Shown piece by piece: positions 2-54,108 of a DNA stretch of 64,000 nucleotides. The stretch covers positions 1 to 64,000 of the forward strand of contig JAJRSA010000031.1 in the NCBI GenBank assembly GCA_024279035.1. Reading direction: 5' to 3'. The translations under genes and the position numbers were made by a program. The DNA is from Alphaproteobacteria bacterium (GTDB taxonomy: Bacteria; Pseudomonadota; Alphaproteobacteria; Micavibrionales; Micavibrionaceae). The notes below the pieces were generated by a model, which searched no databases, was not told the DNA's origin, and saw nothing but the letters and a program-made list of their open reading frames with translations. How positions within the stretch are numbered: the first letter of the stretch is position 1; each line of letters begins with the position of its first letter.

Positions 2-142
2 TTGTGCCTGCCTAAATATTCCTCTGATTTTAACCCAATCGAAAACACATTCGGAGCCATGAAAACAAACTGGAAAAACGCCCTTCCAAACACAATAATA
101 GACATGATCGTAACGTCCAATTGTTCATTTAAATTACTATAA
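2..142 (+). mobile_element. IS630-family transposase, C-terminal fragment
   Basis: The window opens inside a reading frame (codons begin at base 2) that ends with TAA at 140-142. The visible 46 residues include LPKYSSDFNPIEN, the signature around the last catalytic acid (here E of PIEN) of the DDE domain in IS630/Tc1-type transposases, followed by a short tryptophan-containing helix. The protein ends about 30 residues after this motif, as is usual for the family, so the C-terminus is probably intact and the rest lies to the left. I saw no terminal inverted repeat just after the stop, so the right end of the element is undefined. Confidence 0.8.
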
Positions 143-5494: not shown

Positions 5495-5820
5495 TCTAAT
5501 TTATCCTTTTTTTATTGGTTAAACAACCACAAACCTACTGTACTTCATGAAATACAGTGCAACGCATACGACATTATTTTAGAAAGCCTTATTCTATGGA
5601 TTGCCCATCCCACGTCTGTGATGATGTAAGGTATAGCAGGTTTTTAGGCAAAATTCAACTTTTATTAATGTTTCGTTTTGAAATACACCGTGATTATACA
5701 AGATAAAATGATTTTTAATCATTTTATCTTTGCGTTCAGACGCCACGCAAGCTTCGCCCTATACGGGGCGGGGATACGGTCGTATCCCTGATCTTGGGGT
5801 TGCTTTCAGGAGAGTTAGGA
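5495..5820. other. carD-fdxA intergenic region, no gene
   Basis: The 326 bases hold no convincing reading frame. The carD-proximal half must contain the carD promoter and leader. From 5701 onward it contains a perfect AT-rich hairpin followed by a GC-rich segment that resembles the repeat found at 43889 and 53969 (listed separately). Confidence 0.6.
5701..5785 (+). repeat. Distant relative of the 140-bp structured repeat
   Basis: The arms 5701-5713 and 5717-5729 (AGATAAAATGATT and its exact complement) make a 13 bp hairpin with a three-base loop. Directly after it comes TGCGTTCAGACGCCACGCA, then GCTTCGCCC and a second GC hairpin (CGCCC / GGGCG). The full-length repeats have the same order: long AT-rich hairpin, then TGCGTTCAAGCCACGCAGGC, then a GCGG hairpin. 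The stem sequence itself is different, so only the middle and the architecture are shared. Confidence 0.5.
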
Positions 5821-23008: not shown

Positions 23009-23155
23009 GGGGATTCTCTGTCAGATAGTTAAAATGTAAGGATGTTTTTAACATGGAATGTTTCTAAATACAAATAAGCGAAGTCTTAATTTTTTTGACC
23101 ATACAGTATATATAGTCCTTTTGATTAAGAATAAGACGCACCCTCCCGCCCACTG

Positions 23156-25734
23156 TCACTCCTTTCCTTTCTTTAGATTGGCCTCAAGATTGTCTCGTAT
23201 AGCTTTAGTCTGCGGATGATCTCCCCCGAGTGTACGCTCTGAGATGTCCAGCGCTTTGCGGTAGAGTGGTTCTGCGTCTTCATGAAGTCCTTGATCGTCC
23301 AGATTATAGGCGAGGTTATTATAGATCTGGGCTGTATCAGAGTGATATATCCCTAAAATCTCTAGCGCCTTGTGGTAGAGTGGCTCTGCCTCTTTATGAT
23401 GTCCCTGATTATCCAGATTACAGGCGAGGTTATTGTAGCTCATGGCTGTAGAGGGATGATTCCCCCCTAAGCTATGTTTCTTGATATCTAGGGATTTGCG
23501 GTGGAGCTCCTCTTCCTCTTTATAACGCTTTTGTGTGCTCAGGTTATAGGCGAGGTTATTGTAGCTCTGGGCTGTATCAGGATGACTCACTCCGAGTTCA
23601 TGTTCTCTGATTCCTAGGGCTTTACGGAAGAGTGGTTCGGCCTCCTCATTACGTCTCTGTGAGTTCAGGTTATAGGCGAGGTTATTATAACTCTGGGCTG
23701 TATTAGGGTGAGTTACCCCGAGCTCATGCTCTCTGATCCCCAGCGCTTTGCGGTGGAGCGTCTCAGCTTCCTGATGACGCCCTTGCGCATCCAGGTTGGC
23801 CGCTAGATTATTATAGCTCTGGGCTGTATTAGGGCAAGCCTCCCCTAACCTGCGCTTATAGATGTTCATCGCTTTGCGGTGGAGCGTTTCAGCTTCCTGA
23901 TGACGCCCTCGCGCGTCCAGATTGGTTGCTAGATTATTATAGCTCTGGGCTGTATCAGGATGATCTACTCCCAGTGTGTATTTCCTGATATCCATCGCTT
24001 TGTGGTAGAGCGTTTCCGCCTCCTGATAACGCCCCTGTAGGTTTAGATTATAGGCCAGATTGTTATAGCTAATCGCCGTATCCAGATGACCTTCATCAAA
24101 ATATTCTTCCGTAAGAGCAAGAGCTTCACGCCATATTTGCTCCCCGATAATATAACGCGCAGCATCTGATATTGTCTTGGATATAGGGGCAAGCCAATCG
24201 ACATACCCTTCAAGGCCAATTTGGCGTCTTAAATAGCTAGCTTCCAGTAGCGCATTGATGGTTTGCTCAGTGATATCCTTTGGGGAAGACACGGTTGCGC
24301 GTTGCTCAAAATGCTCAAACAGGCATGCGCGTGCTTTTTCTTTCTGTGTCTCGTCGAGAGATGTACTAATTATTTCTGACACAGCCTTATGTATAGAAAA
24401 ATAACCATCCTCCCCCTGTGTAATAAAGGAGAGTTTGGTCATATTTTCAAATTGATCATGAGGGAGCGCTGTCCCCATTATCTTCACAACATGAAAGAAG
24501 GATTTTTTATCAAAACGCTGTGCAATGGAGAGGTTCTTGAGGGTGCTTTGAACGGGAAGATCATAGTCACGTAGTAAACTCTCTACCATTTCCCGAGCCC
24601 GTCCTTCAAATGTTTTCTCTCTTAATTGAAACTGAGTACTTGTAATGGTCGAGCCTTTGGCAACGAGCTCGCGCCAATGTTCAACCAATAGGTCAAGAAG
24701 AAGGGGGTGTCCTGCTGTGCCATCTACACTGGCACTGGCAATGATCGCCTTACAAATCTTTTTATCCTCAAGCGGAATCTGATCAAGCCAGCTTTGCGCA
24801 TCCTTTTCAGACAGCCCGCCCAATAAATGTTGAACGCCCTTAAGGTCTTCGACCCAATCATTGTCTTGTGCCCAATGTAGCTTTTCCCGAGAGAAGAAAA
24901 TCGCGAGCAGTCCATTAACTTCTGATATGAATGTCCGCAAACGCCTATCAAACAAATTTTCTTGCATGCGCCCTGTACCTGCTCCGTCCAATACACTTTC
25001 ATATGCATCAATAAGCAACACAAAACGTTCTTCAGGGTTTTTATCTAAGTAATAATTTAGCTCTTTCGCTAGAATCACAGGTAGAAGCTGAGCCAATTCA
25101 TAGGGCTTTTTTAGTTCAGAGCCAATGCTGTAAAGAGCTTTAAAATGATCCCGCGTTCCTTCCAGATATTTTGTTTTACTTTTATCAAAGACCCACCCCC
25201 CTAACTTTTGCAGGGAAGGGCCAAGCCCGGGGATGCTCTCAAGTGTTTCAGAGGCAAGCTCAATCCCTGATTTAATGAGGTCAGGGGAAATAATTTCAAG
25301 CGTTTTCTTTGATTTTGAAAGAAAACCATTCGTAAGTTTTGGGAATTCTTGCTCGGCACGGCTACTTTCCCACAAAAGCGCGAGTGCAATGTCGAAGACA
25401 GGAAATACAATACCGGCTTTGGCAAACTCATTCCTGATCCAGACCATAAATATATCCGGATCACTTTTGCTTTTACCATGTAGATCAAGACGTGCAAATC
25501 TATGGTTTTTATAAATATGCTCCTCTTTATCTATATTCACGCCTAGCCCCAAATTCATCATTTTACGGCTTAAGGCTGTTTTCCCTTGCCCGCCAATGCC
25601 ATGAAAAACGCTCAGGATGGCGCAGTCTGTTGGAATATTTAGGCAGCCTCTTTGAAAAATTGAAGTGGTTCTTCACGGTTCACAAAAATATCACTGGCTT
25701 TTGGCGGGAGAGTAGATCGTCTTGGTTGCGCCAT
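23156..25734 (-). pseudogene. STAND-like P-loop NTPase with TPR repeats, frameshifted
   Basis: The gene seems to start at the ATG at 25734 (MAQPRRSTLPPKASDIFVNR), but this frame stops at 25639-25641 after LQFFKEAA. The downstream frame continues the same protein: it reads NIPTDCAILSVFHGIGGQGKTAL, whose GIGGQGKT is a P-loop, and then stays open to 23156. From its first ATG (25561) the downstream frame alone would give 801 residues without the P-loop. The middle has a Walker B-like RFVLLIDAYE and FSREKLHWAQ; the C-terminal 320 residues are about seven 42-residue kinesin-light-chain-type TPRs. The total of 2579 bases is one short of a multiple of three, which fits one lost base. NTPase-plus-TPR proteins often sense signals or phage; the function here is unknown. 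Confidence 0.75.
23190..24110 (-). repeat. Tandem 126-bp coding repeats (TPR units)
   Basis: About seven copies of a 42-codon unit follow one another, each containing SYNNLAxNL, a short QGRxxEAE stretch and a KAL.I....LG..HP.TAQ tail. One unit near 23330 is about three codons shorter (LEILGIYHSDTAQ). Similarity is high also at DNA level (GGTTATTATAGCT-type blocks recur), so copy number could change by recombination. Confidence 0.85.
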
Positions 25735-30093: not shown

Positions 30094-30131
30094 GTGCCCT
30101 GCTTGCACGGTACTTCCCAATCAGCTGATTC

Positions 30132-30168
30132 TTCAAAGAATGTACTATTCTTAATGAAAATGACTATA
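30132..30168 (-). repeat. Truncated copy of the 140-bp repeat
   Basis: CTTCAAAGAATGTACTATTC and the following TTAATGAAAATGACTATA match the end of the full copies at 43889 and 53969 with one or two differences, including the terminal GACTATA. The rest of the element is missing or decayed between 30094 and 30131. As with the full copies, it lies between convergent genes. The proC stop codon (TAG) lies inside the terminal TATAGTC. Confidence 0.7.
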
Positions 30169-43888: not shown

Positions 43889-44028
43889 TATAGTCATTTT
43901 CATTAAGAATAGTGCATTCTTTGAAGATGACCCGAGCGACTGCGAGGCGGCGGGAGTCCGCCGAAAGCCTGCGTGGCTTGAACGCAGTTTAGAATAAGAA
44001 TGCCTTGTTCTTATTCTAAACGACTATA
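43889..44028 (-). repeat. 140-bp structured repeat, copy A
   Basis: The element runs from TATAGTC (43889) to GACTATA (44028), a perfect 7-base inverted end. Read on the minus strand it contains a 14 bp hairpin (GTTTAGAATAAGAA, loop CAAGGCA, exact complement), then TGCGTTCAAGCCACGCAGGC with short nested pairings, a CGGCGG/CCGCCG hairpin, and a last hairpin (AAGAAT/ATTCTT). Copy B at 53969-54108 has the same length and about eight differences, two of which keep the long stem paired. It lies between the convergent ppdK and galU, and its end encodes the last codons of galU. Confidence 0.85.
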
Positions 44029-44937
44029 TGCGGCTTCAGCGTTAATCGCCAAAGCATGTTTTTGAATCATCTTTTGAATAGAAGCGCCGATTTCTGGGTC
44101 ACGGAGACTAAAGGCGATGTTGGCTTCAATAAATCCTGCTCGACTTCCGCAATCATAGCGTTCTCCTTCGTATCTTAAGCCATGGAATGGCTGTGTGCCG
44201 ATGAGTTTAGCCATGGCGTCGGTGATTTGAATTTCTCCCCCTGCGCCTGTTTCAAATTTGGAGAGATGTCCAAAAATTTCAGGTTGGAGGATATAGCGTC
44301 CAATGACAGACAACGTAGAAGGTGCGTCTTCTGGGTGTGGTTTCTCGACCAGTCCTTTAATAGACGCAAGCGTCCCATCATCACTCTCGACGTCCAAAAC
44401 GCCGTATTTGGAGGTGTCTTCTTTGGGAACATCCATGACGGCGACCATATTTCCCCCTGTCTCGTTATAGTGTTCAATCATTTGCTTGAGGCAGGGTGTG
44501 TCAGAGAGGATCACGTCATCGGGCAACATAATAGCAAAAGGCTCATCACCAACTAGTTTTCTGGCGCACCAGATGGCATGTCCTAATCCCAAAGGACGTG
44601 CTTGGCGGGTAAGGAAGAGTTGGCTCTCTCCAATTTCGCAGGTACGGACTTTGTCGATCATATCCTGTTTTCCACGGGCTTTAAGTGTGCGTTCAAGCTC
44701 TGGCTGATAGTCGAAATGTTCTTCCAGCATTTCTTTTTGGCGCCCTGTGACAAAGATAAATTCTTCAATGCCTGCCGCTTGGGCTTCTTCAACAGCATGT
44801 TGAATCAAGGGACGATCCACGAGGGGAAGCATTTCCTTGGGCATAACTTTTGTTGCGGGTAAAAAGCGCGTGCCGAGTCCTGCAACAGGGAAGACAGCTT
44901 TACGGACAGGTTTCCATTTAGTGTGTGGGTGTGACAT
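44011..44937 (-). CDS. galU: UTP-glucose-1-phosphate uridylyltransferase
   Basis: It makes UDP-glucose for envelope polysaccharides. The 308-residue protein has the nucleotide-binding motif AVFPVAGLGTRFLPATKVMP and the family segments EMLPLVDRPLIQHAVEEA, FAIMLPDDVILSD and YDCGSRAGFIEANIAFSL. The ATG at 44937 is preceded by AGAGGAAAC; the ATG at 44955 is unlikely. The last five residues (YSRLE) and the stop are read from the end of the 140-bp repeat, so the original C-terminus was probably changed by that element. Confidence 0.95.
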   Translation of the reverse strand: MSHPHTKWKPVRKAVFPVAGLGTRFLPATKVMPKEMLPLVDRPLIQHAVEEAQAAGIEEFIFVTGRQKEMLEEHFDYQPELERTLKARGKQDMIDKVRTCEIGESQLFLTRQARPLGLGHAIWCARKLVGDEPFAIMLPDDVILSDTPCLKQMIEHYNETGGNMVAVMDVPKEDTSKYGVLDVESDDGTLASIKGLVEKPHPEDAPSTLSVIGRYILQPEIFGHLSKFETGAGGEIQITDAMAKLIGTQPFHGLRYEGERYDCGSRAGFIEANIAFSLRDPEIGASIQKMIQKHALAINAEAAYSRLE

Positions 44938-45013
44938 GTTTCCTCTTGTGTTCAATGTGTTACGTCGCCATACTTGCCATGTTTTAACAGACTTGTCGAG
45001 AAAGAATTATAGC

Positions 45014-53796: not shown

Positions 53797-53819
53797 TAAA
53801 CGCTCCTCAAAAGAAAAAA

Positions 53820-53836
53820 CCGAGCATAACGCTCGG
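53820..53836 (-). terminator. Hairpin terminator on the minus strand
   Basis: CCGAGC (53820-53825) pairs with GCTCGG (53831-53836) around ATAAC. The A run just left of it (53814-53819) is a T tract on the minus strand, so it would stop transcripts coming from LysR, about 280 bases after that gene. Confidence 0.7.
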
Positions 53837-53968
53837 CTAAGTTAAACAGGGATGTCTTACGCTTGTAGAGGGCGTAAGAGCTAAATTGCCGAAGCAATAG
53901 AACCCTATTATTCATAAATTTTGAAGGATGGGTAGGGGCTTTTGTCAATACAAGCTATGCACGATACG

Positions 53969-54108
53969 TATAGACGTTTAGGATAAGAACAAGACATTCT
54001 TATCCTAAACTGCGTTCAAGCCACGCAGGCTTTCGGCGGACTCCCACCGCCTCGCAGTCGCTCGGGTTATCTTCAAAGAATGTACTATTCTTAATGAAAA
54101 TGACTGTA
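53969..54108 (+). repeat. 140-bp structured repeat, copy B
   Basis: Same length and order as copy A, but reversed on the chromosome. It starts TATAGAC and ends GACTGTA, so its inverted ends are slightly degraded. The long stem is GTTTAGGATAAGAA against its exact complement; relative to copy A one A-T pair has become a G-C pair with both arms changed. The GC hairpin has one change (C to A) that leaves a G-T pair on the other strand. It lies between the convergent AMIN-like gene and LysR, ending four bases before the LysR stop. Confidence 0.85.

Follow-up and report, generated by a model that had tools for sequence, protein, structure and literature searches.

What kind of element is the 140-bp structured repeat that occurs twice in the window (the whole stretch of 64,000 nucleotides analyzed here), and which part of it is conserved? 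We conclude, with a probability of roughly 0.78, that the two copies, called A and B, are non-autonomous MITE-like elements in which a structured core found across the class is held within transposon ends, elements on which an IS630-type transposase would act in trans and in which the role of the core is one that we infer.

Two elements in the window

A (43889-44028, plus strand) and B (53969-54108, minus strand) are each 140 nt long and align without gaps at 94% identity on opposite strands, in agreement with the equal length, approximate identity and orientation given in an earlier note on this DNA. Their folds are stable (z = -6.6 for A and z = -5.8 for B), and 0 of 200 dinucleotide shuffles were as stable. 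Read 5' to 3', each has a left arm, a stem H1 with a GACT loop, a variable stem H2, the block AAGCC-TGCGT-GGCG(N)TTGAACG, and a right arm. H1, H2 and the block make up a core of about 65 nt. The block includes a short hairpin, H3 (GCC..GGC, swapped to GGC..GCC in five copies of genome G020), followed by a tail. The inverted ends that the note had described, TATAGTC/GACTATA, are exact in A, while in B each end carries a single change (TACAGTC and GTCTATA). The flanking ORFs of both elements are convergent, as the note had also stated, but A extends beyond intergenic DNA, since the reading frame of galU (44011-44955, minus strand) stops within the right arm of A. One pair in the stem of the right arm differs on both sides, being A-T in A and G-C in B, just as the note had seen.

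Two models of the core were used: R1, a covariance model built from 33 cores, and R2, which includes H3. Both were built partly from cores of genomes that were later searched, and E-values in those genomes are partly by construction because the models include their cores. The features of the window are as follows.

43889-44028, plus strand: element A, whole, 140 bp (13 full-length genome copies, alignment)
43889-43909, plus strand: left end of A, TATAGTCATTTTCATTAAGAA, an IS630-like terminal repeat (pattern search; comparison with same-genome IS630 ends)
43893-43931, plus strand: left arm hairpin of A (fold)
43928-43990, plus strand: conserved core of A (R2, 66.1 bits, E 1.7e-18, with A among the sequences behind the model; covariation)
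43932-43947, plus strand: H1 of A, the GACT-loop stem (alignment to R2)
43948-43963, plus strand: H2 of A, CGGCGG/CCGCCG (alignment to R2; covariation)
43964-43984, plus strand: conserved block of A, AAA-GCC-TGCGT-GGC-TTGAACG, with short hairpin H3 (alignments, covariation)
43987-44021, plus strand: right arm hairpin of A, 14-bp stem (fold, alignment)
44008-44028, minus strand: right end of A, TATAGTCGTTTAGAATAAGAA, which gives the galU codons YSRLE and a TAA stop (ORFs, pattern search, congener comparison)
53969-54108, minus strand: element B, whole, 140 bp (DNA match, alignment to A)
54007-54069, minus strand: core of B (R2, 63.2 bits, E 1.3e-17)
5727-5791, minus strand: third core of the window, without TATAGTC ends, H1 stem GGGATAC/GTATCCC (R2, 63.1 bits, E 1.4e-17)
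5700-5730, minus strand: right arm hairpin of the third copy, 14-bp stem
30130-30168, minus strand: fragment with left arm and left end only, 97% identical to A (DNA match)
8-94, plus strand: IS630-type transposase tail (DDE_3), with an end repeat TATAGTAATTTAAATGAACAA at 121-141 (minus strand)

The third copy (5727-5791) has a right arm only. The transposase tail lies at the window start, where the earlier note had placed it. An additional TATAGTC end, TATAGTCCTTTTGATTAAGAA, is found at 23111-23131, just past the end of an 801-amino-acid minus-strand ORF that contains repeats at 23214-24097.

Copies and conservation of the core

The genome searched comprises 1.82 Mb in 40 contigs and has 24 DNA matches to A, 13 of them full length (at least 139 of 140 positions, 92 to 100% identity) and 11 partial or diverged; two of the 24, L016 and L024, overlap on opposite strands. 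The flanks of the genome copies appear mutually unrelated. The 13 full-length copies keep the TATAGTC..GACTATA ends with few changes. Changes in their right arms are compensated in L008 (which is B) and L013 and uncompensated in L009, L010 and L012, and L011 has a 6-bp deletion. The earlier note had taken the changed pair of A and B as the mark of selection for pairing. By itself this single pair is weak evidence, and the arms alone would not prove such selection, because three copies have uncompensated changes and one has a deletion.

Cores alone are more numerous, with 51 copies in the same genome by R1. Many of these cores are without recognizable arms, and there are tandem copies 66 bp apart. 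One locus, L204 (G000:C19:179400-182400), has six core copies in 1.8 kb, of which four have the right arm CCCTGT..ACAGGG.

It is in the core that the case for selected pairing is strong. We searched 100 loci with R1 and aligned 128 matches. Across the 114 distinct rows, pairing holds in 85.4% of cells and double changes occur in 317, whereas shuffling gives 115.3 on average (none of 500 shuffles reached the observed count) and slid controls give at most 86; the alignment was fitted to H1 and H2 and thus favors both. Double changes are present at every pair of H1 and H2 and at one of the three pairs of H3, which was absent from the fitting model. At individual positions of the stems, as many as 44 of 113 cells lack pairing. 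The first alignment, of 33 rows, had 62 double-change cells versus 29.6 in shuffles, with no excess in how many pairs show a double change (8 versus 7.5; 307 of 500 shuffles as high). The earlier note expected a structured element to have many copies with compensatory changes; the 51 cores of this genome and the covariation of the aligned cores bear this out.

Departures from pairing number 13 G-T versus 0 A-C in H1, 4 versus 3 in H2, and 4 versus 6 in H3, as counted among related rows of an RNA-model alignment from which 39 (H1), 42 (H2), and 2 (H3) of the 114 rows were skipped as poorly formed. The bias in H1 is as expected of an RNA read in one direction, H2 and H3 are without bias, and both RNA and folded DNA are possible. 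In our reading of the R2 alignment, the H1 stem of A, B and their subfamily is interrupted midway by two opposed G-A mismatches.

The core is conserved and the arms are not. The middle of the element rather than its ends is the deeply conserved part, a point that the earlier note overlooked. Exact matches to a long degenerate pattern of the core number 60 and are spread over 57 stretches from named genomes. By title, 28 of these stretches are from Alphaproteobacteria (Azospirillum, Caenispirillum, Rhodovibrionaceae, Kiloniellales, Micavibrio, Asticcacaulis, and MAGs), 8 are from MAGs called Proteobacteria (two isolates), and 21 are from bacterium MnTg02, which is unclassified at NCBI. In this last organism, four core copies stand in tandem with a 133-bp spacing at L087:408-871.

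With R1, the core was found in 27 of 104 family genomes and in 31 of 385 class genomes, the own genome included in both and some of the class matches being partial or doubtful. Copy numbers for the class are lower bounds because 13 candidates were scored per genome. Many of the weaker class matches are partial (model positions 5-41), and several represent a variant with a longer third hairpin. This variant core, seen at L165, L169, L177, and other loci, has a TTGAGG-like tail (AAGCCAAGCG..CGCCCGGCGNTTGAGG) and at least 13 matches in genome G344. Three class matches, L167, L182, and L184, look like chance or coding DNA. Copies found by R1 number at least 150 in MnTg02, 62 in Caenispirillum salinarum, 11 in a Rhodovibrionaceae MAG, and 1 each in Asticcacaulis sp. 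AC466 and Azospirillum brasilense. In a phylum sample of 398 genomes (the share of which outside the class is not stated), six had a match at E 1e-5, the own genome included, and all six are of the own class. Neither of two genomes of the own genus (88% and 86% complete) has a core. The distribution of the core is patchy.

Among phages and plasmids there were 0 matches of A at E 1e-5, and viral contigs had 0 matches of the core pattern; an origin from a phage or plasmid was rejected on these grounds. The variant core with the longer H3 (query L169) was not found in plasmids.

Arms, ends, and insertion sites

The positions of the arms are nearly constant, the left arm usually ending a few nucleotides from H1 and the right arm usually beginning 1 to 2 nt past TTGAACG. 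Counts of hairpin arms unreached by 40 shuffles, among 116 distinct copies, are 47 for the left, 63 for the right, 29 for both, and 22 for neither. The sequences of the arms are lineage specific: TATAGTC in the own family I, TACCAATTGG in G014, TACCGTTTCG in G020, TACCAATGG in MnTg02, TACCGG in Azospirillum, and TACCAAG in Rhodovibrionaceae, so that the same core lies between unrelated arms in different genomes. Genome G047, from another family of the order, has TATAGT-ended copies of a similar core, and therefore the combination of core and ends need not have arisen in the genome of the window. Genomes G016 and G022 have matches of bare ends, 21 to 28 bp long.

The own genome has nine DDE_3 matches, seven of them near contig ends. 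Eight of the nine have an inward-pointing TATAGT end at most 40 bp away, and the ninth (C3) has such a string only within the match itself. One complete IS630-type insertion sequence of 894 bp is found at L032:1469-2362 (G000:C8), with ends TATAGTGCTTCTTAATAAGAATAAG and TATAGTAGTTCTTAATATTAATATT and two ORFs that match PF13358 (E 1.1e-31) and PF01710 (E 6.5e-19); its transposase is split over the two ORFs, which are possibly joined by a frameshift. When each of the six distinct 25-nt IS630 ends is set against whichever end of the element fits it better, 11 to 13 of the 19 positions after TATAGT are identical; a string on C3, the seventh that was compared, is omitted since it lies inside the transposase match. 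Among a further 96 TATAGT stretches taken as background, 10 to 13 score equally high, and most of these, judged by eye, resemble further such ends. The end pattern (at most 3 mismatches) has 76 matches in the genome, compared to 9 for a reversed control. The ends of A and B partly match those of the IS630 elements of the same genome, which supports the assignment in the earlier note to the IS630/Tc1 type. Correia ends also start with TATAG.

Locus L018 is a 49-bp solo palindrome made of two such ends. At G000:C19:209245-209451, two ends TATAGTAATTTGCATTAGGAA face each other over a span of 207 bp, and single such ends occur on C27 and C31; these probably represent another MITE family of the own genome.

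Insertion sites were compared with those of relatives, with galU and pyruvate phosphate dikinase identified by NCBIfam. In two congeners galU ends in GCATAG or GCCTAG. Here TAGTC comes directly after GCATA, with the codons YSRLE and a new TAA stop coming from the end repeat; A is thereby placed on the TA of the galU stop codon, with one side comparable. B is absent from congener G001, where the stop codons of the two genes are 9 bp apart, compared to 316 bp between the genes here. The earlier note had proposed examining empty sites in relatives for a TA duplication. The site lacking B in G001 has no clean junction, and the congeners have no two-sided empty site for A or B: ppdK is beside galU in neither, a different gene stands beside the neighbor of B in G002, and the intergenic DNA is too diverged. 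For the TATAG form a TA duplication is therefore conjectural. In Azospirillum genome G107, a TACC-ended copy lies between tandem genes; all 12 congeners fetched (31 genomes searched) lack it at the corresponding position, an empty orthologous site for this copy; one of the 12 (L312) has about 20 nt of other sequence there.

Among the elements with TACC..GGTA ends, 36 could be scored; 22 of these are flanked by an exact TNA repeat of 3 bp (TAA in 12, TTA in 6, and TGA in 4), and none by a 4-bp repeat. In 2,000 trials with randomly paired flanks, a mean of 8.3 and a maximum of 17 had such a repeat. These 36 are what is left of 138 elements after 102 were dropped for an unscorable end, the TATAG forms included, and at least L082 and L110 look like one insertion in two related genomes. 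Fourteen of the 36, the G107 copy included, are without the 3-bp repeat. A stricter count, with exact TACC/GGTA only, gave 12 of 21 with the repeat, versus a shuffled mean of 3.8 and a maximum of 9. In A. ramasamyi, all four annotated copies, none of which is among the 36, are flanked by TCA on both sides; one starts with TACT rather than TACC, and two of the four have a right-hand TCA that serves an annotated gene as stop codon.

A and B are short, lack a transposase, have terminal inverted repeats, and occur in many copies at unrelated sites, as MITEs do. The mobile unit suggested in the earlier note is supported by these scattered copies, by absence from orthologous sites, and by the TNA repeats around the TACC-ended forms.

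Mechanism, alternatives, and related elements

We picture the element as having two layers. The outer layer would be the hairpin arms, the ends of which would act as transposon terminal inverted repeats seen by a transposase. For A and B the most likely mover is an IS630-type transposase, because their ends partly match same-genome IS630 ends, and it would move them in trans into TA dinucleotides; the TACC-ended forms may use another, TNA-targeting transposase. The inner layer, the ~65-nt core (H1 with its GACT loop, H2, and H3) and its TTGAACG tail, would be a passenger selected for its fold and presumably required if the element is to spread or be tolerated. The reading that we prefer is that a folded transcript or a folded strand renders the insertion tolerable or mobile, and that the core came to stand between different transposon ends during evolution.

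Bacterial MITEs are normally recognized by their ends, whereas here a covarying core stays across a class while arms and ends change, and the ends with which the core occurs are of two types, as apparently are the targets. A broader claim, to which we would give slightly less than even odds, is that this is a class-wide mobile family with its identity in the structured core and not in the ends, the core having taken the ends of whichever transposon was active in a given lineage. If true, a core with IS630-type TATAG ends here and with TACC ends and TNA repeats elsewhere reverses the usual rule that MITEs are defined by their ends. A core truly re-equipped with new ends would be a natural passenger that outlives its transposons. 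How folded cores outlive the transposons that carry them is the question raised, and the covariance model is a handle for asking what such passengers do.

Genomic context was scored at 45 loci of the own genome with mechanically called ORFs of at least 80 amino acids: the flanking ORFs are convergent at 15, tandem at 12, and divergent at 10, another 6 loci overlap an ORF, and 2 are at contig ends. A role as terminator, suggested in the earlier note, is not supported. No terminator-like site (a stem followed by a T-run) occurs inside A or B, the one near B (53818-53838) is separate from it, and the divergent and tandem loci also speak against an intrinsic terminator. A known RNA family was rejected as well: none of the 4,227 Rfam models reached its gathering score in the window, where six weak matches around A were far under the cut-offs, and cores at four other loci had no Rfam match at E 1.

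Three other explanations bear on the same data. The core might be an RNA element of benefit to the host in the 3' ends of transcripts, a stabilizer or processing site (compare RNase III on Correia arms), that is kept for the neighboring genes and has arms that are mere stem extensions. Covarying stems and conserved loops would suit such an element, as would the G-T excess in H1, which favors one strand (75 related rows used and 39 skipped, RNA-model alignment), the 15 convergent loci of 45, and the two of four annotated A. ramasamyi copies that sit on a stop codon. We nevertheless consider it unlikely, since H2 and H3 have no strand preference, 10 of the 45 loci are between divergent ORFs, the distribution is patchy with absence from both congeners, and the TNA repeats indicate transposition. 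REP sequences are substrates of RAYTs, which recognize a folded single strand, and by analogy the core might be the substrate of a single-strand-specific transposase or recombinase that recognizes a folded DNA strand, with the arms as by-products. The inverted ends and short target repeat, which indicate a double-strand DDE mechanism, make this improbable in our estimation, even though it would accommodate the conserved hairpins, loops, and tail, the own-genome copies without recognizable arms, and the tandem copies at 66 bp (own genome) and 133 bp (MnTg02).

Lastly, A and B could be ordinary IS630-derived MITEs with a middle that is accidental in one lineage, the likeness of cores across the class being due to chance or coding sequence. 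The IS630-like ends of the own genome fit this account, and some weak class matches (L167, L182, and L184) do resemble chance or coding DNA, but the 60 exact matches to a long pattern in 57 stretches, the covariation of the core, and the identical core type between unrelated arms leave it almost no probability.

The nearest known kinds of element are CIR, Correia, and RUP, with CIR compared by its description. The Correia or NEMIS elements of Neisseria are small MITEs with inverted ends, TA outside, and transcripts that form hairpins, and the elements reported here resemble them in being MITE-like with such ends; passages on Correia in PMC2229807 and PMC10969869 describe no class-wide covarying core between different ends, which the present elements have. 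RUP of Streptococcus pneumoniae is thought, in a passage of PMC2229807, to be mobilized by IS630-Spn1 owing to shared ends and TA targets. A and B are like RUP in being MITE-like with an IS630 link, although RUP in that passage is of one species, with no conserved core described in other ends. The IS1031 group of the IS5 family, as outlined in part of PMC12016507, has a TNA target with an exact 3-bp duplication and in this resembles the TACC-ended forms, but the ends given there (GAACCTG...) are unlike TACC, and no such transposase is tied to the TACC-ended elements.

The CIR elements, the Caulobacter CcrM-associated intergenic repeats, are ~110 bp long and intergenic, with two long hairpin arms, a linker, and TA termini, in several alpha-proteobacteria, and are tied to a GANTC site at the arm loop (passages in PMC2229807 and PMC10969869); their mobility is left open in the passage of PMC2229807. 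Two hairpin arms joined by a linker and TA termini are likewise present in our elements. Among the 128 aligned copies, GANTC is present in 21 of the left arms, 6 of the cores, and 19 of the right arms, an apparent difference from CIR as described. Counted as presence in the arm, not in the loop, GANTC is in 17 left and 19 right arms of the 88 copies from other genomes (about 8 expected) and in 4 left and 0 right arms of the 40 copies from the own genome (about 5 expected). CcrM sites are about twofold over flanks in other genomes, where rows are related, with no excess in the own genome.

A literature search, which most subscription papers fall outside, found no title on such a core. CIR is reportedly the work of Chen and Shapiro in 2003, and the core family gives a testable account of these old repeats of alpha-proteobacteria. 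The family to which Asticcacaulis belongs also has the core: R2 found it in 7 of 60 genomes there, with 49, 23, 6, and 2 matches in four of them and a single weak match in each of the other three.
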